NCBI RefSeq assembly: GCF_001642955.1
Contig: NZ_LWSK01000010.1
Coordinates: forward strand, 1 to 64,000
Length of the DNA stretch: 64,000 bases
From: Rubripirellula obstinata
GTDB lineage: Bacteria; Planctomycetota; Planctomycetia; Pirellulales; Pirellulaceae
Direction of reading: 5' to 3'
Shown: in pieces, positions 4,791 through 60,293 of the stretch
How positions within the stretch are numbered: the first letter of the stretch is position 1
Layout of the letters: every line of letters starts with the position of its first letter
Program-made: the position numbers and the translations under genes
Notes under the pieces: model-generated
What the model was told of the DNA's origin: nothing
Database searches by the model: none
What the model saw: only the letters and a program-made list of their open reading frames with translations

Positions 4791-4880
4791 TGTAGGCCGG
4801 AACAAGCTTGCCGCAGTTCCGGCAATCGCATGGTACGACGTTGGTTTGCCGGAACTGCGCTAAGCTTGTTCCGGCCTACA
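4791..4880. repeat. Palindromic repeat, family A, copy 1 (TGTAGGCCGGAACAAGC)
   Basis: The arms 4791-4825 and 4846-4880 (ending GCTTGTTCCGGCCTACA) are nearly perfect complements, about 35 bp each with a 20-bp loop. The element sits between the converging ends of the response regulator and the Mur ligase, where it could act as a bidirectional terminator. Other copies: 7635-7724 (worn), 18888-18975, 38361-38458 and 51581-51671. Confidence 0.9.
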
Positions 4881-4903
4881 TCAATTCACAATCCAAGGAC
4901 TGC

Positions 4904-6662: not shown

Positions 6663-7538
6663 CTATTTCCCCGGCAATTCGATGCCCGCATCGGCCATCA
6701 ATCTCTGCAAATCTTCCCATGCAGCTTTTTTTGCGGCCGGGTTTCGAAGCAGGTAAGCGGGGTGATAGGTCACCAGGACTTTGCTGCCACGATATTGATG
6801 AAATTTTCCGCGGAGTCGTCCGACGGACAGTTTGGTGCCGAGCAATTCAGAAGCGGCAATCGCACCGAGACAGACGATGTATTCGGGGCGAATCAGGTTG
6901 AGTTGTTGTTGGTAAAACGCCTTGCAATTTTGCAGTTCATCGCCTTCGGGATTTCGATTCCCCGGTGGGCGACATTTGACCGTGTTGGTGATGTAACAAT
7001 CGGCGCGGTCCAGCGTGCAGGCAACGATCATCTTGGTTAGCAACTGTCCCGCCTTGCCAACAAAGGGACGGCCGCTGCGATCTTCGTCGGCACCGGGGCC
7101 TTCGCCAAAGAACAGGAACCGTGCTTGCGGACTGCCTTCGCCGAAAACGGTTTGAGTTCGACAGCTAGCCAGAATTTCGCAAGACGTACACTGAGAAACT
7201 TGTTCAGCCAGAATTTGCAACTGTGCCTTGCGATCGTCGGCCGACAATGCTTTCCCGTCGTAATCGCCGTCGGTGGTCGAAAATGCGGGGACGGTTTCTA
7301 GCCGGGTTTTCGGCATCGCTGGCTTGGACGCGGCGGCCGGAGCAGGCGGTTTGGGTGGCGAGACAGCAGGCGGATCGGGCGATGAGGGCTCTGGGACGGC
7401 AAACTGGTCGGCCAATAATTCGACGCTCGCCGGATTGGCGACTGGCAAGAACGAAACGCCCGATCGCTGGAGATGGGCGGCTAATGCAGCCGCTTGGGCG
7501 TGGATTTCGGCAGGATCGAGTGATTCGTTGTCAGACAT
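6663..7538 (-). CDS. Uracil-DNA glycosylase, family 4 type (4Fe-4S)
   Basis: 291 residues from ATG 7538 (MSDNESLDP); an upstream start at 7577 is possible. Residues 1-95 are Pro/Ala-rich and probably disordered. The catalytic domain follows: cluster ligands C117-x2-C120, then CRPPGNRNP and NCKAF; the GEGPGADED and GRPFVGKAG motifs; LRGKFHQ; and the TYHPAYLLRNP motif that contacts DNA. Family 4 enzymes remove uracil from DNA at the start of base excision repair. The N-terminal extension is longer than in typical enzymes of about 200 residues. The gene is monocistronic and diverges from der. Confidence 0.93.
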   Translation of the reverse strand: MSDNESLDPAEIHAQAAALAAHLQRSGVSFLPVANPASVELLADQFAVPEPSSPDPPAVSPPKPPAPAAASKPAMPKTRLETVPAFSTTDGDYDGKALSADDRKAQLQILAEQVSQCTSCEILASCRTQTVFGEGSPQARFLFFGEGPGADEDRSGRPFVGKAGQLLTKMIVACTLDRADCYITNTVKCRPPGNRNPEGDELQNCKAFYQQQLNLIRPEYIVCLGAIAASELLGTKLSVGRLRGKFHQYRGSKVLVTYHPAYLLRNPAAKKAAWEDLQRLMADAGIELPGK

Positions 7539-7796: not shown

Positions 7797-9146
7797 ATGT
7801 CTGTCCCCAAAGTCGCCATCATCGGACGTCCAAACGTCGGCAAAAGCAGCCTCTTTAATTGGCTCGCACGCCGGCGGCTGGCCATCGTCGATGATTATTC
7901 CGGCGTGACCCGCGATCGAATGACGACCCTGATCGAACACGACGATCGGTTCTTTGAATTGACCGATACCGGTGGAATGGGCGTCGTCGACGATGATAAC
8001 CTGACCGAAGATGTCGTCCGCCAAATCGAAATGGCGATCACGTCCGCCGACATCATTCTGTTCGTCGTGGACATCCAAACCGGTTTGATGCCGCTGGATG
8101 TGACGGTTGCCGAACGACTGCGTGGGATCGAACGACCTGTAATTTTGGTTGCCAACAAAGCGGACCAACCGCATCAAGACATTGCAGCGGAGGAGTTCCA
8201 AAAGCTCGGACGAGGACACATCATTCGCGTCAGCTCGACTCAAAATCGGCACCGCGACGACTTGTTGGAATTGATCGTCGATCGTTTGCCCGAAGCGAAT
8301 GACGAAACCGTCGAAGAGCCTACGATGAAGATCGCGATCGTTGGTCGCCGGAATGTTGGCAAGAGTACGTTCGTCAACACGTTGGCCGAGACCGATCGAA
8401 TGATCGTCAGCGAGGTCGCCGGAACGACTCGTGACAGCGTGGATGTTCACTTTGACGTTGACGGCCAAACCTTCATCGCGATTGACACGCCGGGATTACG
8501 AAAACGAAAAAGCCAACGCACGGACCTGGAATGGTACGGCATGCACCGCGCCCAACGCAGCGTTCGTCGCGCCGACGTGGTGCTGATGTTCTTCGACGCC
8601 GTCGAAACCGCCAGCAAGGTTGATAAGCAGTTGCTCGGTTACGTGATGGAACATCACAAGCCTTGCATTTTTGTGATCAACAAATGGGACAAACTGCATG
8701 GAACCGTTCCAACGGATCGCTGGGTTCAATACTTGCGTGGCCAGTTTCCGACGCTCGCGTATGCTCCGATCGCGTTCATCACCGGCGAAACGGGCAAGAA
8801 CGTCAAGTCACTGTTAAATCACTCGGCGATGTTGTTCAAGCAAGCACGCGAACGAGTATCAACCGGCGTGCTGAACCGAGTGATCCGAGCCGCCATTGAT
8901 GCTCATGAACCACCGATGTATCAAAACCGTCGGCCCAAAATTTATTACGCCACGCAAGTCGCGACGGAACCGCCCACGGTCGTGCTGGTCTGCAACGACC
9001 CCAAAGCATTCAGCAACGATTACCAGCGATACCTCTTAAATGTCCTTCGTGACCATTTGTCGTTCGGCGAAGTCCCAATCAAATTGTATCTGCACAAAAA
9101 GCATCGCATGGATGACGGCACTGAAAAAGATTCGGTGCGACGTTAG
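7797..9146 (+). CDS. der: Ribosome assembly GTPase Der (EngA)
   Basis: 449 residues from ATG 7797. There are two tandem GTPase domains. The first has GRPNVGKS at residues 10-17, DTGGM and NKAD; the second has GRRNVGKS from about residue 183, DTPGL and NKWD. A KH-like C-terminal domain ends GEVPIKLYLHKKH. This is the diagnostic architecture of Der, which is essential for maturing the 50S ribosomal subunit in the cytoplasm. Length is normal and no motif is damaged. It stands alone on the plus strand, converging on the nucleotidyltransferase gene 36 bp downstream. Confidence 0.98.
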   Translation: MSVPKVAIIGRPNVGKSSLFNWLARRRLAIVDDYSGVTRDRMTTLIEHDDRFFELTDTGGMGVVDDDNLTEDVVRQIEMAITSADIILFVVDIQTGLMPLDVTVAERLRGIERPVILVANKADQPHQDIAAEEFQKLGRGHIIRVSSTQNRHRDDLLELIVDRLPEANDETVEEPTMKIAIVGRRNVGKSTFVNTLAETDRMIVSEVAGTTRDSVDVHFDVDGQTFIAIDTPGLRKRKSQRTDLEWYGMHRAQRSVRRADVVLMFFDAVETASKVDKQLLGYVMEHHKPCIFVINKWDKLHGTVPTDRWVQYLRGQFPTLAYAPIAFITGETGKNVKSLLNHSAMLFKQARERVSTGVLNRVIRAAIDAHEPPMYQNRRPKIYYATQVATEPPTVVLVCNDPKAFSNDYQRYLLNVLRDHLSFGEVPIKLYLHKKHRMDDGTEKDSVRR

Positions 9147-15621: not shown

Positions 15622-15726
15622 CTAAGGAACTCGCGCCTTTTGATAGTCGCCTTTCGCTCCGCGAAAGCAGCGGATTCGCTACTTTCGCGGAGCGAAAGGC
15701 GACCCTTATTCCTCGCTCGTTCCTAC
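15622..15726. repeat. Palindromic repeat, family C, copy 1
   Basis: Nested inverted repeats: outer AAGGAAC..GTTCCT and inner GTCGCCTTTCGC..GCGAAAGGCGAC. The inner 58 bp is nearly identical, in opposite orientation, to the element at 60191-60293. Its right end runs into the stop codon of the A-type carrier gene. Confidence 0.85.
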
Positions 15727-18869: not shown

Positions 18870-18887
18870 TTCAGGTAAAGAATGGAT

Positions 18888-18975
18888 GTAGGCCGGAACA
18901 AGCTTGGCGCAGTTCCGGCAATCCAGCGCAGTACCATGCAATTGCCGGAACTGCGCCAAGCTTGTTCCGGCCTAC
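18888..18975. repeat. Palindromic repeat, family A, copy 2
   Basis: GTAGGCCGGAACAAGCTTGG at the left and CCAAGCTTGTTCCGGCCTAC at the right, near-perfect arms with a central AATCCAGCGCAGTACCATGCAATT loop. It lies between converging genes (MATE and HtrA), as copy 1 does. Confidence 0.9.
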
Positions 18976-25414: not shown

Positions 25415-25585
25415 CCCAACGCCGTGAAGGGTTTTAAATCGTTTAACCGCGTGGGCATCGCCCCGCGCGTTGTGCTGGCCTCGAACGCGCGGGGCGATGC
25501 CCAACGCCGTGAAGGGTTTTTAAATCGTTTAACCGCGTGGGCATCGCCCCGCGCGTCGTGCGGCTCCGAACGCGCGGGGCGATGC
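25415..25585. repeat. Two tandem copies of family D hairpin repeat
   Basis: Two direct units of about 86 bp (25415-25499 and 25500-25585). Each contains CGTTTAACCGCGTGG followed by a hairpin of GCATCGCCCCGCGCGT with ACGCGCGGGGCGATGC. Related pieces occur at 51546-51563 and 51680-51713. The second unit is cut by the insertion element directly after its hairpin. Confidence 0.88.
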
Positions 25586-27290
25586 CTGGGCTGATGAAAA
25601 ACGAGCTGTGCTGGAAATTTGGGCAAGGTTAGAATTGCAAAACTGCTACGCATCCTTTACTTGATTTGGTATCAAATCACACCAAGCGAAGGAGCGCAGC
25701 AGTGGCACAATTATTATTCCAATCCGTCTCGCGGTACAGGTCCTCCCTTTACGAAACGGCACGCAATCTGTTGCGAAGTCGGAACAATCAATTTGCAAAG
25801 GTTCAAAGACTACAAAAGCAACTTGGCGAAGCTCGCGTGGAGGCGGAAAGACTCAAAAACGAGTGGCAACGCACCAACGACGATCTGCACGAGGCACGCA
25901 GGCAACTGAAACAGCAACAGGATCGCGCCGACCAACTCCAAGAGCGTACCAATCGTCTGCCCAGCGACCTCCCGCTGAAGCACCACTGCTTTGGGCCCAA
26001 GATGATCGCTTTGTGTTTGAATCTGAGCAACAAAATCGGGTTTCGACCGACCGAACAAGCTCTCAAAATGACTTTTGAGTTCCTTGGAATTCCCGACAAG
26101 CCACCGACGTGGAGCACGATCCGAAAGTGGAGTTGTCGAGCGGGCGTTGCGCTGCTGAAGGAACCTGTCGAAGCAGCCGATGACTGGATTTGGTTTGTGG
26201 ATCACTCATGTCAAATCGGTCAGGACAAGGCGATGCAGATCCTTGGTGTGCGAGCCGGTGAGTTGCCCAGTCCGGGAGAGACTTTACCGCTGGAGAAGAT
26301 GCGACCGCTGGCCGTCTCGATCAAAACCAGATGGACATGGGACGACGTTCGCAAAGAGTATGCTCAACTTGCGAAGCGAATTGGAACGCCACGATACATT
26401 GTCACCGATGGGGCGAAGGAACTTTGGGAAACGGTCGATGTCCTGCAAAAACCGGATAAAGAGGTGATCGTGCTACGTGACTTCAAGCACTACGCGGCGA
26501 ATGTCTTCAAGAGGTCGATCGGCAAAAGCGATCGTTTTTTAGCATTTCGCAAGCAATGGGGGCAAACAAGAAGCGCGATCCAACAAACCGAACTGGGCTA
26601 CTTCACTCCGCCAGCACAAAAAGAAAAGGCTCGCTTCATGAATCTTGGCCCGACGCTGCGTTGGGCATCGATGATCCTGTATCACCTGGATCGTCCCGGT
26701 TCCAAGACAAGGAAAACAATCAGCGAGTCACGAATGAACGAGAAGCTCGGATGGGTCCGAACCTACCGAGATGACATCCAGTGCTGGAGTCGATGTCAAA
26801 GTATCATCCAAACGTCGCTGCGATTGATCAATCGCGTAGGATTGTCCGCAGGGACTTCCTTGCGGCTCAAAGAAGAACTGACTCAACTCAAGGTGCGTCA
26901 TTCATGGGACTGTTCAACCAGTGATGCGATGTGCGAGGAACTCGTCAGCTTTGCACTCGCTGAAGAATCCAAGCTGAAGGACGACGAACGAACTTGGATC
27001 TCGACGGAGAATCTCGAGTCCGGTTTTGGGCAGTTCAAACGACTTGAGGGCCAGCATAGTAAAGGCGGTCTGACGAGCCTTTCAGCAGCGATGGGTACTG
27101 TGCTTTGTCACTGGACACCGCAACGTGTCAGGGAATTGCTTCCGACCGTCAGCACGAAGCAAGTTGACCAATGGGTGAAACAAGAACTTGGCAGCACGCT
27201 CGCAGCGAAACGCAAACTCGCCTACCAGGAAGCAGCAAACTCATCCGGGTAGCAGTAAAAGCCTTTGCACGACATTTTCATCAGCCCAGG
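25585..27290 (+). mobile_element. Insertion element with 16-bp terminal inverted repeats
   Basis: CCTGGGCTGATGAAAA at 25585-25600 is the exact reverse complement of 27275-27290, and the interval holds one transposase gene (25702-27252). Total length is about 1.7 kb. No target duplication is obvious. The left end abuts the hairpin of a family D repeat. I do not recognise the IS family. Confidence 0.82.
25702..27252 (+). CDS. DDE-type transposase of the insertion element
   Basis: 516 residues from GTG 25702, which has AAGGAG seven bases upstream; longer TTG starts are less likely. A coiled-coil N-terminal region (QLGEARVEAERLKNEWQ) precedes a probable RNase H-like core with Asp167 (FVDHS), Asp236 (VTDGAKEL) and a candidate glutamate near 439 (ENLESGFGQFKR). 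The gap before the glutamate is long, as in transposases with an inserted helical domain. The encoding element has matching terminal repeats at both ends. The frame is intact, so the element may be active. Assignment to a named IS family needs a database search. Confidence 0.82.
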   Translation: MAQLLFQSVSRYRSSLYETARNLLRSRNNQFAKVQRLQKQLGEARVEAERLKNEWQRTNDDLHEARRQLKQQQDRADQLQERTNRLPSDLPLKHHCFGPKMIALCLNLSNKIGFRPTEQALKMTFEFLGIPDKPPTWSTIRKWSCRAGVALLKEPVEAADDWIWFVDHSCQIGQDKAMQILGVRAGELPSPGETLPLEKMRPLAVSIKTRWTWDDVRKEYAQLAKRIGTPRYIVTDGAKELWETVDVLQKPDKEVIVLRDFKHYAANVFKRSIGKSDRFLAFRKQWGQTRSAIQQTELGYFTPPAQKEKARFMNLGPTLRWASMILYHLDRPGSKTRKTISESRMNEKLGWVRTYRDDIQCWSRCQSIIQTSLRLINRVGLSAGTSLRLKEELTQLKVRHSWDCSTSDAMCEELVSFALAEESKLKDDERTWISTENLESGFGQFKRLEGQHSKGGLTSLSAAMGTVLCHWTPQRVRELLPTVSTKQVDQWVKQELGSTLAAKRKLAYQEAANSSG

Positions 27291-27319
27291 GTCAGGCCTT
27301 GTGTTGAGTTTTCAAGTGC

Positions 27320-27349
27320 TCCTGATGGGGACAGTCCTGATGGGGACAG
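27320..27349. repeat. Tandem 15-mer TCCTGATGGGGACAG, two copies
   Basis: Two exact units (27320-27334, 27335-27349) followed by GGCA, downstream of the RAYT gene. The core GGGGACAGGGCA also occurs at 28790-28900 (as its complement) and in the 57.9-58.6 kb block. Confidence 0.75.
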
Positions 27350-27542
27350 GGCATATTCTTGACGGAGCAGAGTCGCACGCCGACGTGATATTGCGATCTA
27401 CGGGCATGCTTGATGCTCAATAACGCTATTAGGCGGCGAATCCAAGCAGAAATTGCGGTCAAACATACGCGAAAGCGCAGCATGCGTTATGGCAAACCAA
27501 TTGGGTCGCTGCTCTAGAAGAAAGAAAAGACGTGGTTGCCGG

Positions 27543-28610
27543 TTAGTCTTCCGTTGACATTAACTCGCGGACCCGGCGGTGGACTCGGAAACGCTGGTGC
27601 TTGCGATGGCTGCGCATTGAGTCAATCGTATCGGGATTACCGGCCACGTGATGGAACAGCCTGCCGAAACTGCTCACCAATTCACACCAATCATCTGGGG
27701 CGATTCCCAGACGCTTTATCACCGGGGGAAGATCGGTGGGCGTCTTGCCTCGTTTGCTTCGGTGACTCTGACGAGCCGTCCAGTCGAGCAGTTCGATATA
27801 GTCAAGCAAGGACATCGCCAGAAACCCCTTCTCGCTGCATCGTTTCCCTTGGTCGCTGGCGCATGGTCCGGTGGGATCCGACTTCTCATCGATCGATAAT
27901 GGACTCAAGAAAGCAGCAGGGTCTCGCTGAAAGGACTTCGGTTCGGGGCGCTCGGCTTGGTGTTGCTGCCGCATCGAATCGATGCGACGCCGGGCTGAAG
28001 TATGCTCACTCGACTCGATCGTCTGGCAGATCTCCGCTCGGATGGGGTTCAAATCCACGTAGGCACTGCAAGCGATGATCGAAGCTTCGTCGATCAACCG
28101 AATGGCTTTGTAACGTTCTTCAAAGAAGCGTCCGGTCGCCTGATCTTCTCGGTTACTTCGCATGGCAATTCGCTGGCACAAAAGCCGCATCCACCACGAG
28201 ACATCAGCCAAACGCTCTCGCGTCTGCGCTAGCTTGAGCGGGCAATTTCGGATCAGGTTCAGTTCCGCCTCGCTGGGTGCCATCGGCTTGCCTTGCTTGT
28301 CGGTTCGGTGCGGGCAGATCATCAGCCAGCGGCGAGCGACTTCGGTATCGGACCAAGTTCTGACCACGTCGGGCCGATTGCGGAGGATCAAATGAAAATG
28401 GTTATTGAGCACCGCGAAGGTCAATAAATCGATACCGAAGTGGGCGGCGAAGTGTTCGAGCCATTCTTCGATCCAGACTTTACGGTGATCGAAATTCTTA
28501 TCGGTCAGAGGGTCCTGGCCAAAGAGGAAGCACCGTCGAACGGTTCGGTTGTAAACATGAACGACATTGATTTCGGATGAGTCAATTACCTCACATCGAG
28601 CTTTTCGCAT
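27543..28610 (-). CDS. RAYT-type (Y1, REP-associated tyrosine) transposase
   Basis: 355 residues from ATG 28610 (MRKARCEVIDSS). The Y1 transposase core is present: VHVYNRTVRRCFLFG at the start, the metal-binding pair His71-Phe-His73 (NNHFHLIL) and catalytic Tyr184 in SAYVDLNP. Such enzymes bind and cut single-stranded REP palindromes to disperse them. The C-terminal 170 residues are longer than in most RAYTs and basic. Both flanks carry GGGGACAGGGCA sequences, and the upstream flank is homologous to the repeat block near 58 kb, so those are probably its substrates. The gene is intact. No accessory gene accompanies it. Confidence 0.85.
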   Translation of the reverse strand: MRKARCEVIDSSEINVVHVYNRTVRRCFLFGQDPLTDKNFDHRKVWIEEWLEHFAAHFGIDLLTFAVLNNHFHLILRNRPDVVRTWSDTEVARRWLMICPHRTDKQGKPMAPSEAELNLIRNCPLKLAQTRERLADVSWWMRLLCQRIAMRSNREDQATGRFFEERYKAIRLIDEASIIACSAYVDLNPIRAEICQTIESSEHTSARRRIDSMRQQHQAERPEPKSFQRDPAAFLSPLSIDEKSDPTGPCASDQGKRCSEKGFLAMSLLDYIELLDWTARQSHRSKRGKTPTDLPPVIKRLGIAPDDWCELVSSFGRLFHHVAGNPDTIDSMRSHRKHQRFRVHRRVRELMSTED

Positions 28611-28738
28611 CACGCTGATCCAGGTCAGAGGAATTGAACACATCAAAGAGAGTGGCAATGCGTTCAGTTGCGATGAAATTAACGAGATTGCGACCAAACT
28701 GTCAAATTTTGTGCTAGCAAGCCTCCGATACTCCTGCA

Positions 28739-28920
28739 AAACGGGGACAATCCGCAATTGCATTTGCTATCAATTCAGCCTGCAACTCTCGCTCATGCCC
28801 TGTCCCCGTTCGCGCCCCTCGCTCGTGCCCTGTCCCCGTTCGCGTCCTCCCCGTTCGCGTTCGCGCTTTCGCGCCCTCGTGCCCTGTCCCCGTTCGCGGT
28901 CGCGGCGCCGTTCGCGGTCG
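28739..28920. repeat. RAYT-linked GC-rich repeat region
   Basis: GGGGACAATCCGCAATTGC at 28743 onward, then CAACTCTCGCTCATGCCCTGTCCCC, is homologous to the segments at 58132-58265 (GGGACAATCTGCAATCGC..TGCCCTGTCCCC). It is followed by several GTGCCCTGTCCCCGTTCGCG-like units. It lies just upstream of the RAYT gene. Confidence 0.82.
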
Positions 28921-28938
28921 GATGAGCGGATTTTTTGG

Positions 28939-29033
28939 CAAAACGATGAGGGGGCAAAACGATGGTGCGCGGTAATCATGCCGCTTTCTCGCTCGCATGC
29001 AGCGCACCATCGTTTTGCCCCCTCATCGTTTTG
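28939..29033. repeat. Perfect 32-bp inverted repeat
   Basis: The arms 28939-28970 and 29002-29033 are exact complements around a 31-bp spacer. Each arm holds the 10-mer CAAAACGATG twice with a G-tract between. It is at the edge of the mobile region, between the RAYT repeats and asd. No gene is inside. Confidence 0.92.
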
Positions 29034-29130
29034 TCCAGTTTGTTAAAGAGAGCAAACCGTACGGACGATTCACAATGCAGCGGATTGGAACCAGCCCAGC
29101 TTTGCAGATGAATGCGCAGGATAATACGAT

Positions 29131-29160
29131 GACTGAAGCTGACTGAAGCTGACTGAAGCT
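29131..29160. repeat. Tandem 10-mer GACTGAAGCT, three copies
   Basis: Three exact copies lie just downstream of the asd stop codon, with a fourth partial copy (GATTGACG) following. Confidence 0.8.
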
Positions 29161-29170
29161 GATTGACGCG

Positions 29171-30190
29171 TTAGCTTGCGGTTGCGGCGGCCTGCTTGAC
29201 TAGCAATTCGGCAATTTGGACTGCGTTGGTGGCAGCGCCTTTTCGCAAGTTGTCGCTGACGCACCAAAACGAAATCCCGTTTCCGCCACTGATGTCTGGG
29301 CGGATGCGGCCGACGAAGACATCATCTTTGCCGTCGCAGTCAAGCGGCATCGGATACTTCTGTGCATCAAGATCATCGACGACGGTGACTCCTTCGGCGG
29401 CCTCGAACAATTCTTTGGCTTCGGCCACACTTAGCGGACGTTCGGTTTCGACCAGGATCGATTCGCTGTGGCCGATCGCGACGGGAACACGAACGCAAGT
29501 CGGACAGACCTGGATTTCTTCGTCGCCCAGAATCTTGCGGGTCTCGTAGACCATCTTCATTTCTTCGCTGGTGTAACCTTCGTGCTTTTCGGATCCGATT
29601 TGCGGGATCAGATTAAATCCAATCGGATACTGAAAAGTTTTGGGTGTGTGTTTTTTGCCAGCCAGCGATTGTCGGATGCTGTCGTTGAGTTCTTCGTTGC
29701 CAGCTAGTCCAGCACCGCTGGTTGCTTGATAGGTGCTGACGACGACGCGTCGGACGCGGGCAGCTTTGTGTAAAGGCGCAAGCGCGACAACCATTTGAGT
29801 CGTGCTGCAGTTGGGGCTGGCGATGATGCCTTCGTGTCCAAGCGTTGCCTCTGGATTGACTTCGGGGACGATCAAAGGCACCTTGGGATCCATTCGCCAA
29901 TAGCCGCTTTCGTCCACGACAACCGCACCGGCATCGACCGCCCAAGACGCGAATTCGGCAGAGACTTCGTCGGGCGTACTGGCGATGACCAAGTCAATGT
30001 TTTTGAACGCACCCGGTTCCAACAATTCCACCTTGATCATTTCGCCTTGAAAGCGAACTTCCTTGCCAACACTTCGCTGGGAGGCCAATAGCTTTAGCCG
30101 CTTCATCGGAAACTGACGTTCGGCAAGCTGTTGTAAAACGATTCGGCCAACGGCACCTGTGGCACCAACAAGAGCAACGGTTTCGTACAC
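29171..30190 (-). CDS. asd: Aspartate-semialdehyde dehydrogenase
   Basis: 339 residues. GTG 30190 gives the family-typical start VYETVALVGATGAVG; a TTG 45 bp upstream is less likely. The NADPH fold has GATGAVG, the active-site cysteine is in SPNCSTTQM, and catalytic residues follow in the IGSEKHEGYTSEE region and RVPVAIGHSE. The enzyme reduces aspartyl phosphate to aspartate semialdehyde, the branch point to lysine/DAP, methionine and threonine, and thus also supplies peptidoglycan DAP. It is alone, with no lysC or dapA neighbour. Length and motifs are normal. A GC-rich inverted repeat lies upstream. Confidence 0.96.
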   Translation of the reverse strand: MYETVALVGATGAVGRIVLQQLAERQFPMKRLKLLASQRSVGKEVRFQGEMIKVELLEPGAFKNIDLVIASTPDEVSAEFASWAVDAGAVVVDESGYWRMDPKVPLIVPEVNPEATLGHEGIIASPNCSTTQMVVALAPLHKAARVRRVVVSTYQATSGAGLAGNEELNDSIRQSLAGKKHTPKTFQYPIGFNLIPQIGSEKHEGYTSEEMKMVYETRKILGDEEIQVCPTCVRVPVAIGHSESILVETERPLSVAEAKELFEAAEGVTVVDDLDAQKYPMPLDCDGKDDVFVGRIRPDISGGNGISFWCVSDNLRKGAATNAVQIAELLVKQAAATAS

Positions 30191-38360: not shown

Positions 38361-38458
38361 GTAGGCCGGAACAAGCGAAACGCAGTTCCGGAAATTGCAT
38401 CGCACTGCATTTTACTGTGCCGTATTGCCGGAACTTCGCTTCGCTTGTTCCGGCCTAC
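38361..38458. repeat. Palindromic repeat, family A, copy 3
   Basis: GTAGGCCGGAACAAGCGAAACGCAG at the left and CTTCGCTTCGCTTGTTCCGGCCTAC at the right. It lies between the start of leuA and the end of the ABC permease gene. Confidence 0.88.
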
Positions 38459-38506
38459 ATCATGTTGATCAGGACCGAATAACAGTATCAATGGTTCATG
38501 CGATTT

Positions 38507-50436: not shown

Positions 50437-51540
50437 ATGATTGTAGGTATCCCCAGTGAAGTCAAATCCGATGAGTATCGGATTGCAATGTTGCCGGTCG
50501 GTGTAGAGGAATTGGTGCGACGTGGTCATCAAGTGATTGTGCAAGCGGGTGCCGGTCTTGGCAGCGGATTAGCAGATCACGATTATTTGCGGGCTGGTGC
50601 AGAATTGGTTGCCGGTGGCAGCGATGTGTTTGAACGCGCGGACTTGATCATCAAAGTCAAGGAACCGCAACCGAGTGAGTTTGACCTGATCCGTTCGGGC
50701 CAGTTGCTGTTCACCTACTTTCACTTTGCCGCCAGTCGTGAATTGACCGATGCGATGGTCGATAGCGGATCCAGTTGTCTGGCTTACGAAACGCTGCGCG
50801 ACGCCAAGGGACGTTTGCCGTTGTTGACGCCAATGAGCGAAGTAGCCGGGCGAATGAGCATTCAACAAGGTGCGAAGTATTTAGAGAAGCCGCAAATGGG
50901 TCGTGGGATTTTGCTTGGCGGGATTCCCGGTGTCGCGCCAGCTCACATTACCGTTTTGGGTGGCGGCGTGGTCGGTGCCAACGCCGCTCGGATCGCTGCA
51001 GGGTTCCAGGCGGATGTTGTCATCCTTGACGTTGACTTGGATCGGCTGCGGTATCTCGATGACGTCATGCCGGCCAACGTCAACACGTTATTCAGTGACC
51101 GGTATAACGTTCTGGAACAGCTCGAGCGCGCGGACTTGGTCATTGGGTCGGTGTTAATTCCCGGAGCGAAGGCTCCGCAATTGGTCCTTGCCGAAGATCT
51201 GTCGCGTATGAAACCTGGCAGCGTCATCATCGACATTGCCGTTGACCAAGGTGGTTGCATTGAAACAAGCAGACCCACGACTCACAGCGATCCAACCTTT
51301 GTCGTCGACGAAGTCGTTCACTACTGCGTCGCCAACATGCCAGGCGCGGTCGGCCGGACCAGCACGTTCGGACTGTGCAACGCAACCTTGCCATGGGTCT
51401 TGCGACTCGCCGATTCAGGATTGCGAGCAGCGATCGATAGTTCACGACCGCTGCGAGCGTCGCTCAACATTCACCAAGGTAAGGTCACCAACAAAGCGGT
51501 TGCCGGTGCCTTTGACTTGCCATTTGATTCGATGGAATAG
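50437..51540 (+). CDS. ald: Alanine dehydrogenase
   Basis: 367 residues from ATG 50437, with AGGA upstream. Motifs: MIVGIPSEVKSDEYRIAM at the N-terminus, catalytic Lys in IKVKEPQ and His in FTYFHFA, NAD fingerprint VLGGGVVGANAARIA, and GGCIETSRPTTHSDPTF and VANMPGAVGRTSTFGL at the end. It interconverts alanine and pyruvate with NAD. The gene is 13 bp after the acyltransferase, making a kinase-acyltransferase-ald unit; pyruvate kinase is about 0.6 kb beyond the ald stop on the other strand. Length and active-site residues are normal. Confidence 0.97.
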   Translation: MIVGIPSEVKSDEYRIAMLPVGVEELVRRGHQVIVQAGAGLGSGLADHDYLRAGAELVAGGSDVFERADLIIKVKEPQPSEFDLIRSGQLLFTYFHFAASRELTDAMVDSGSSCLAYETLRDAKGRLPLLTPMSEVAGRMSIQQGAKYLEKPQMGRGILLGGIPGVAPAHITVLGGGVVGANAARIAAGFQADVVILDVDLDRLRYLDDVMPANVNTLFSDRYNVLEQLERADLVIGSVLIPGAKAPQLVLAEDLSRMKPGSVIIDIAVDQGGCIETSRPTTHSDPTFVVDEVVHYCVANMPGAVGRTSTFGLCNATLPWVLRLADSGLRAAIDSSRPLRASLNIHQGKVTNKAVAGAFDLPFDSME

Positions 51541-51580
51541 CTCTAAATCGTTTAACCGCGTGGAGCGCTTTTTAAATTGA

Positions 51581-51671
51581 TGTAGGCCGGAACAAGCTTT
51601 GCGCAGTTCCGGCAATCCGACAGTAGTACAATGCAATTGCCGGAACTGCGCTGCGCTTGTTCCGGCCTACA
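51581..51671. repeat. Palindromic repeat, family A, copy 4
   Basis: TGTAGGCCGGAACAAGCTTT at the left and GCGCTTGTTCCGGCCTACA at the right. It is downstream of ald and may terminate that operon. A family D fragment (ATCGTTTAACCGCGTGG) lies on either side, at 51546 and 51680. Confidence 0.88.
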
Positions 51672-51679
51672 CAAACGCT

Positions 51680-51713
51680 CAATCGTTTAACCGCGTGGGC
51701 ATCGCCCCGCGCG
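51680..51713. repeat. Family D hairpin repeat fragment
   Basis: ATCGTTTAACCGCGTGGGCATCGCCCCGCGCGTT matches the units at 25415-25585; the second half of the hairpin is only partly present here. Confidence 0.7.
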
Positions 51714-51766
51714 TTCGGCCCCGCGCGACCTCGCGAATCAACAATCTCACACGCACAGAACACACG

Positions 51767-57897: not shown

Positions 57898-58559
57898 TTA
57901 AACCTAGGCCGTGAGTCGGATAGCTTCACACGGCCTCCATGCTCCCAATTTTTTTGTCGCTAATTTTTTTGTCTAACCTTCACCGGAACGCGTGGTGTGC
58001 TTGCCAGCCTAGGAGCGAGGTTGGGAGGATTTTGACAAAAAAACTAGCGACAAAAAAATGGTGTGCTCGTGATAATCCCAAACGGGGACAGCCAAAATCT
58101 CAAACGGGGACAGGGCATACCAAACGGTGCCGGGACAATCTGCAATCGCACTTGCTATCATTTCAGTTCCAAACGGGGACAGGGCATGTCAAACGGCTCC
58201 GGGACAATCTGCAATCGCACTTGCTATCATTTCAGTCGACAACTCTCGCTCGTGCCCTGTCCCCATTTGACCCTTTAAACCTAGGCCGTGAGTCGGATAG
58301 CTTCACACGGGCTTCATGCTCCCAATTTTTTTGTCGCTAATTTTTTTGTCTAACCTTCACTGGAACGCGTGGTGTGCTTGCCAGCCTAGGAGCGAGGTTG
58401 GGAGGATTTAGACAAAAACATTAGCGACAAAAAAATGGTGTGCTCGTGATAATGCCAAACGGGGACAGGGCATGCCAAACGGTGCCGGGACAATCTGCAA
58501 TCGCACTTGCTATCATTTCAGTCGACAACTCTCGCTCGTGCCCTGTCCCCATTTGACCC
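57898..58559. repeat. Duplicated repeat block related to RAYT flanks
   Basis: Two direct units, about 375 bp (57898-58272) and 286 bp (58274-58559). Each has TTAAACCTAGGCCGTGAGTC, an inverted pair built on TTTTTTTGTCGCTAATTTTTT, then GGGGACAGGGCA and CGGGACAATCTGCAATCGC, ending in GTGCCCTGTCCCCATTTGACC. The first unit carries an extra internal copy of about 70-90 bp. The segment with GGGACAATCTGCAATCGC and TGCCCTGTCCCC matches the region upstream of the RAYT gene at 28739-28810. The reading frames inside are repeat-derived and not annotated. Confidence 0.88.
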
Positions 58560-58624
58560 ATTTGACCTTGCCCTGTCCCCATTTGACCTTGCTTGAAACC
58601 TAATTGTATCGAATCACGTTAGCG

Positions 58625-60190: not shown

Positions 60191-60293
60191 CTAAGGAACG
60201 AGCGGGAAATTAGTGTCGCCTTTCGCGGAGCGAAAGTAGCGAATCCGCTGCTTTCGCGGAGCGAAAGGCGACTATAAAAGTCGCACGTTCCTA
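60191..60293. repeat. Palindromic repeat, family C, copy 2
   Basis: Outer arms CTAAGGAACG and CGTTCCTA; inner arms GTCGCCTTTCGCGGAGCGAA and TTCGCGGAGCGAAAGGCGAC. The inner part is nearly identical to the reverse complement of 15622-15726. It is just downstream of the toroid protein gene. Confidence 0.88.

Follow-up and report, generated by a model that had tools for sequence, protein, structure and literature searches.

We propose that the Y1/HUH transposase gene near 28 kb of the analysed stretch of DNA (64 kb, hereafter the window) lies within an insertion-sequence-like element, and that both ends of this element are inverted copies of a linear motif. The motif would consist of a conserved core, GGGGACA (minimally GGACA), followed by a lineage-specific tail of 5-6 nt, which is GGGCAY here. 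Most likely, the enzyme reads the motif at each end on a single DNA strand; Tyr184 would cut and the strand between the motifs would move, a single-strand chemistry taken by analogy from the HUH/Y1 family. Gene-less motif pairs (units of 65, 64 and 90 bp) may be mobilised in trans as non-autonomous mini-elements, and such mini-elements would make up the repeats at 58 kb. We assign a probability of about 0.72 to this reading as a whole, namely a subclass 2.3 HUH enzyme with linear core-plus-tail inverted ends and trans-mobilised mini-elements.

The transposase gene (27543..28610, minus strand) has TnpAY1 subclass 2.3-like features. Its longest open reading frame, 27543-28763 (-), encodes 406 aa; alignment with relatives places the likely start at the ATG at 28610, which gives a protein of 355 aa. 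An earlier note made from the letters of the window had described a Y1-type gene with HxH and the catalytic Tyr intact, and this was confirmed. The HuH motif (N70-H71-F-H73) and the tyrosine (Y184, within YVDLNP) are intact and 110 aa apart, and H71, H73 and Y184 are invariant in all 24 alignment rows (window and 23 relatives). Pfam Y1_Tnp matched the protein with E 0.027, below the cut-off. A PDB sequence search gave weak matches only (best E 0.0042), the top three being chains named transposase, and AlphaFold2 on the 24-row alignment reached a mean pLDDT of 52, so the model was not used. The genome carries a 93% identical paralogue on contig C266, a 50% identical one on C237 and gene fragments on C1. 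The window and C266 genes differ with dS 0.33 and dN 0.025, and the resulting dN/dS of 0.077 indicates that purifying selection has maintained both. Immediately downstream of the element, a 528-aa open reading frame (25666-27252) looks transposase-like by eye; no Pfam or NCBIfam model matched it over the cut-off.

The 12-mer GGGGACAGGGCA occurs ten times in the window, four times at the transposase gene and six times at 58.1-58.6 kb. As the earlier note had it, the repeat flanks the gene on both sides. All four copies here point inward. The 5' terminal copy (28796..28807, -) points into the element, and homology to the C266 paralogue stops 5 bp outside it, at 28812; further copies lie upstream at 28826..28837 and 28880..28891 (both -). 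The 3' terminal copy (27342..27353, +) also points into the element, and an outer partial motif, GGGGACAG with the tail GTCCTG, is found at 27327..27334 (+). At 58 kb, a solo GGGGACAGGGCA is located at 58569..58580 (-) and a solo variant, GGGGACAGCC, at 58084..58093 (+). Across the genome (6.58 Mb, 307 contigs) we counted 41 copies of the 12-mer, 23 on the plus and 18 on the minus strand, compared with a single copy of the same pattern read backwards (0 and 1 per strand). Nine of the 41 adjoin the window and C266 transposase genes, with four copies at the former and five at the latter, and 32 are elsewhere; all 41 taken together have a preferred 5' extension, roughly CCRAAY ahead of GGGG. The 3' piece 27342-27393 recurs on contig C258 with 85% identity over 52 bp, and Rfam gave no match within 27000-29200.

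The match between the upstream flank and the 58-kb block, also claimed in the earlier note, stood as well: 28744-28807 aligns with 58201-58264 and 58487-58550 over 64 bp at 87.5% identity. Within the window, GGGACAATC is present only at 28744, 58132, 58201 and 58487, the unit with 58132 being truncated. A chance or compositional likeness of G-rich intergenic DNA might be suggested by the shortness of the core. The length of this match and the reversed controls, which were near zero or far lower here and in the relatives described below, refute it, and we regard its probability as negligible; the earlier claim that chance is excluded thus holds.

That the motifs mark the ends of a transposon is best seen in Neorhodopirellula pilleata Pla100. 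This genome has eight copies of the element, 94-98% identical over 1.44-1.48 kb, in unrelated surroundings. At the left ends homology is lost 1-32 bp outside GGGGACA (at most 13 bp in 26 of 28 pairs), and at the right ends 5-14 bp outside TGTCCCC (28 pairs). The left and right tails of these copies differ (TAGCAC versus CGACAC). The window and C266 copies share the 5' end up to 28812, and their 3' sides are non-homologous beyond 27475 (the last 130 bp); for this genome the comparison thus does not establish that the 3' motif at 27342 moves together with the gene. We are highly confident that the enzyme's element ends at these motifs. We also examined the folding of the first 70 nt inward from the motif. 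The mean z was 0.02 for 54 left ends and -0.12 for 41 right ends, as against -0.56 for control stretches (n = 89), so that element ends fold no better than shuffles. Since the ends lack excess folding, a canonical REP hairpin is unlikely to be the recognition signal as a rule. The right ends of N. pilleata do contain a hairpin of 8-9 bp, and some members may therefore use one.

The link between motif and gene extends to the planctomycete relatives. The family that contains the source genome also takes in genomes which, at these loci, are identical to N. pilleata Pla100 (G198) and Rhodopirellula rubra (G158), so the host is a planctomycete of the Pirellulaceae. A homologue at E 1e-20 was found in at least 120 of the 199 genomes of the family, source genome included, with only part of the first-look candidates scored; homologue counts in this and the gammaproteobacterial sample are thus lower bounds, and "without homologue" below refers to part-scored candidates. 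We collected 132 loci, comprising 130 from relatives (60 stretches and 70 loci from named genomes), the window and C266, and kept 89 after dropping 43 (partial gene, short flank, duplicate or no match). Among all 8,192 heptamer classes, GGGGACA ranked first by number of loci with a copy in the flanks (68 of 89; median class, 8), and its 311 flank copies compare with six of the reversed heptamer, in five loci. Its orientation is mostly inward, with 139 forward copies upstream and 118 reverse copies downstream against 36 and 18 in the other orientation. Inward copies on both sides were seen at 37 of the 89 loci, and at some loci the motifs on both sides run in one direction. Of the 21 loci without GGGGACA, 16 share an inverted sister word, such as AGGGACAGAGCAT or GGGGCCACCCA (read by eye), and five have none. 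Dereplication at 85% identity left 59 loci. [AG]GGGACA was present in 53 of them, 45 of which carry it on both sides, and missing within 450 bp in the other six; for the reversed motif the corresponding counts were 7 and 0. For the innermost inward motif the median position is about 150 bp on the upstream side (48 loci) and 254 bp on the downstream side (45 loci). Three weak matches (L218, L219 and L220) have no [AG]GGGACA in their loci; L219 was the origin of the gammaproteobacterial sample.

Copies of the motif also bound units without a gene, at several places, as in MITEs and REPINs. The 65-bp unit at 28743..28807, repeated at 58 kb, lies upstream of the likely gene start and outside the gene; its inner boundary is GGGGACA with the tail ATCCGC, and its other boundary TGTCCCC. 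The 58-kb block holds two 90-bp inverted-pair units of the form GGGGACAGGGCA...TGCCCTGTCCCC, which are REPIN/MITE-like (58175..58264 and 58461..58550, with two further copies on contig C78), and a truncated copy at 58106..58165 (+). Genome-wide, gene-less inverted pairs of 64 bp (seven), 90 bp (four) and 40 bp (two) were found; the 64-bp pairs are on two separate contigs, and the tail of the 40-bp units differs at one end. On both C116 and C20, a stretch of exactly 127 bp is repeated at a contig end. This is probably an assembly k-mer effect, and we therefore excluded the unit order there from the evidence. The sequences support the view that copies away from the gene resemble non-autonomous derivatives of the transposase element, and this link holds in two phyla. 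The earlier suggestion that the enzyme disperses these repeats thus stands as far as repeats being element ends and distant copies resembling their derivatives is concerned; that the enzyme itself spreads the solo units we infer to be likely. No transposition event, target duplication or empty site came to light.

Several other repeats were observed in this genome. A 194-bp hairpin repeat with no relation to the motif units is also part of the 58-kb block (57898-58091 and 58275-58468). In the hairpins at 28936-29037, 57941-58066 and 58318-58443, each arm contains a direct repeat with a period of 15-16 bp, of the CAAAACGATG or ACAAAAAAAT type, and part of the first type also occurs beside GGGGACAGGGCA clusters on C78 (twice) and C258. 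The AATCGTTTAACCGCGTGGGCATCGCC repeat is located at 25415-25600 and 51535-51735, with parts on C20, C101 and C237. A palindromic repeat built of CTTTCGCGGAGCGAAAGGCGAC occurs at 15646-15703 and 60215-60272, about 44 kb apart. A stretch of C266 (L053) contains a 546-bp duplication (6921-7466 and 8461-9006, 99.8% identical) in which the second ORF copy is cut short at a 64-bp inverted-pair unit, by either a real rearrangement or an assembly effect.

The motif might instead be an operator or binding site through which the transposase or a host protein controls the gene, its copies having arisen by slippage, gene conversion and segmental duplication. Some arrangements would suit such an origin. 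The two 58-kb units sit amid duplicated stretches (119 bp spaced 286 bp and 194 bp spaced 377 bp), and the motifs of some loci run in one direction as noted above. Tandem motif arrays were found in two single-contig genomes, 25 units of 19 bp in G105 and nine of 21 bp in G148; these arrays look iteron-like (L149 2216-2701, 19 bp x 25.5; L230 816-997, 21 bp x 8.8). At E 1e-3 no homologue of the gene was found in any of 13 G148 regions with dispersed copies, and slippage may thus account for array growth; among 20 stretches with dispersed copies, one homologue was found at this threshold, and it is broken. A control site would leave unexplained the inward motifs on both sides at so many loci, the element copies that end at the motifs in unrelated surroundings and the 64-bp pairs on separate contigs. 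We consider this explanation unlikely, and transposon ends the better account.

The tail that follows GGGGACA carries further information. Its six nucleotides are identical on both sides of the gene in 26 of 50 loci, where 2.8 are expected, and in 19 of 33 dereplicated loci, where 2.3 are expected. In the dereplicated set the mean distance between the two tails is 0.70 vs. 2.44 +/- 0.18, the lowest of 5000 permutations being 1.79. Tail distance correlates with protein distance (r 0.45 over 53 loci, highest of 2000 permutations 0.25; r 0.34 over 38 dereplicated loci, highest of 500 permutations 0.25), and the tail thus appears to follow the transposase tree weakly but clearly. Within one genome (G179), three loci have the tail GACCCC and a fourth CGGCAC. 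It is plausible that the tail is a specificity code. No protein column covaried with the tail beyond chance (best value 0.256 vs. 95% null of 0.33), and the column scan gave no candidate for a single position that sets it. A common core with lineage-specific endings points to a separate tag for each enzyme, which that enzyme would recognise and spread.

Dispersal of the tails was measured in 42 chosen genomes, 22 with a homologue at E 1e-20 and 20 without. GGGGACAGACCCC had 231, 82, 79, 69 and 58 copies in five genomes of one genus, 6-10 in four others, 39 in G021 and none in the remaining 32; its reversed control had two copies over all 42. GGGGACACGGCAC had 8-25 copies in six genomes and at most two elsewhere, and GGGGACATAGCAC had 15 in N. 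pilleata, five in G111 and one or two in three others. All homologue-less genomes except G021 (19 of 20) had none of the three tails tested; other RAYT-type genes are present in 10 of these 20, G021 included. The earlier note had made its reading depend on the repeat being enriched where this subfamily is present. This expectation failed for the exact 12-mer, of which the other 198 genomes have at most seven copies each, and was borne out once the lineage tail was allowed to vary. The exact GGGGACAGGGCA is therefore ruled out as a subfamily marker, because the tail varies by lineage.

The presence of the repeat without any RAYT relative, which the same note had named as contrary evidence, was encountered once and in part. 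In G021 no homologue at E 1e-20 was found among the 9 of 53 candidates scored, despite the 39 GGGGACAGACCCC copies; a family search gave two weaker RAYT matches (E 2.5e-11 and 4.2e-11). At all four places fetched, the GGGGACAGACCCC copies are inside a single repeat, roughly 1.4 kb long (L221 1271-2760, with homologous stretches in L222, L223 and L224), whose copies are mostly 90-95% identical, so the 39 copies represent few independent events. No Y1 gene was seen by eye among the open reading frames of two of the repeat copies. G021 is the one clear exception, in which the enzyme was perhaps lost or missed. The G021 repeat would fit the idea that the element is a passenger which inserts in or next to GGGGACA repeats of another enzyme, as some insertion sequences target REPs, and so would the window and C266 copies, which share the 5' side only. 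A passenger would not be expected to show a tail that varies from one transposase lineage to another and agrees between the two sides, different tails among its copies within one genome (G179), or the lack of all three tails from 19 homologue-less genomes. We regard it as very improbable.

Further support for an enzyme-specific motif came from the Gammaproteobacteria. In the class containing the Pseudomonadales genome G199, at least 50 of 369 genomes have a homologue at E 1e-25, and the sister motif there is GGACACCCAY. GGACACCC is present in 24 of 33 gammaproteobacterial loci with 49 copies (reversed, 0), mainly inward (29 forward upstream and 17 reverse downstream). The exact word is on both sides in only eight of the 33 loci; among the 24 loci with full flanks it is found in 15, on both sides in seven. 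The same places also have variants, for instance GGACAGCCAT and GGACAGTCAT. We counted GGACACCCAT in 18 of the 50 genomes with a homologue and in 19 without (of 20, G218 was left out, at 400 kb). The former had 315 copies versus 67 reversed, and the latter 59 versus 58. The excess is carried by eight of the 18 genomes, G199 alone having 110 of the 315 copies; the other ten have fewer than 10 copies or less than twice the control. Because these relatives carry the core with a lineage tail, the GGACA core with its tail is apparently older than the split of the two groups or was spread by transfer.

We then compared the enzymes themselves. Among 82 planctomycete proteins, window included, 60 matched our HuH-Tyr expression, 47 with a spacing of 110; among 33 gammaproteobacterial relatives 30 matched, 23 with a spacing of 109 (unmatched, 22 and 3). 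YVDLNP is present in 57 of the 60 and in all 30. The HuH variant of the window, NHFH, is shared by 28 of the 60 matched planctomycete proteins; NHYH occurs in six of these 60 and in 24 of the 30 matched gammaproteobacterial ones. By spacing and Y motif the window enzyme fits TnpAY1 subclass 2.3, as compared with the published description of that subclass.

The label RAYT, which the earlier note had used, did not hold in its canonical sense. NCBIfam NF047646 (REP-associated tyrosine transposase) gave 30.4 bits (E 3e-07), under its curated cut-off of 80 bits, and no GTAG foot was found at the GGGGACAGGGCA motif or in its neighbourhood. A canonical RAYT with GTAG REPs is thus ruled out, the motif being without GTAG and its ends without excess folding. 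Two classical RAYTs of the source genome, on C33 and C306 (DHWH/YIHWNP), have 16 and 12 GTAGGCC copies and no GGGGACA in their 3.45-kb loci. That window-type GTAGGCC repeats surround other RAYTs of the genome further weakens a GTAG-REP identity. On C237 the 50% paralogue, too, has GTAGGCC repeats nearby; some 85 bp upstream of it lies AGGGACAGGCAT. Classical GTAG-type REP pairs (GTAGGCCGGAAC...) are present in the window at 4791-4886, 18887-18975, 38361-38462 and 51581-51671.

In its accessible text, a published survey lists subclass 2.3 as a Y1 group without cognate DNA (PMC6006769), and the present data supply a candidate motif. A constant core with a lineage tail offers a direct substrate for biochemistry, and the tails would provide a series of naturally altered specificities, some of them side by side in one genome. 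The data would suggest that linear signals can serve HUH Y1 enzymes in place of hairpins, a point of relevance to the origin of REP-type repeats from mobile elements. As a tentative extension, to which we give somewhat less than even odds, subclass 2.3 enzymes may use a two-part linear address in place of a hairpin. An old, near-fixed core (GGACA; GGGGACA in Planctomycetota) would be read by all of them, the lineage tail would isolate a mini-element family from those of sister enzymes in the same genome, and the arrays of up to 25 units would be accumulated landing or docking sites.

Compared with known systems, the element resembles IS200/IS605 in its predicted HUH/Y1 catalysis and in that the gene would move as a defined element. 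It differs from that family in having Y---NP (YVDLNP) rather than Y---Q, no excess subterminal hairpin and linear inverted end motifs. With RAYT/REPtron and REPIN systems it shares a Y1 enzyme with Y---NP and dispersed inverted pairs that are possibly mobile in trans. It is unlike GTAG-type RAYTs in lacking GTAG and an excess end hairpin, and in forming near-identical multi-copy elements in at least one species. In TIRYTs/TIRtrons, as described by Di Nocera et al. (2013, PMC3733652), terminal inverted repeats flank a Y1 gene; many of these repeats bear no relation to GTAG REPs, some share GGGGWSAS, and some make up families that include dimers and clusters. A Y1 gene between non-GTAG terminal inverted repeats is likewise found here, and GGGGWSAS is matched by GGGGACAG of the window, whereas the GGGGACAT and AGGGACA forms of relatives do not fit it. 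The two-sided lineage tail, the long tandem arrays and the gammaproteobacterial GGACACCCAY set the present elements apart from TIRYTs as these are portrayed in the text of PMC3733652. Of the Di Nocera examples, 26 have been placed, in subclasses 2.1 (20), 2.2 (4) and 2.5 (2) and none in 2.3, according to the accessible text of PMC6006769.

Subclass 2.3 is reported mostly from Proteobacteria, with a median HuH-Y spacing of 110 aa, YVDLNP, a median length of 325 aa and several copies per genome; in the same accessible account, automatic or manual search gave no REP-like sequence for subclass 2.1 or 2.3 (Quentin et al. 2018, PMC6006769). We found no paper linking subclass 2.3 with this motif in the open-access literature, which mostly omits subscription journals. 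The enzymes described here are like that published subclass in spacing, YVDLNP and several copies, with NHYH in most of the gammaproteobacterial relatives. Relative to its description in PMC6006769, as far as accessible, the present set differs by including members from Planctomycetota and by having cognate inverted motifs.
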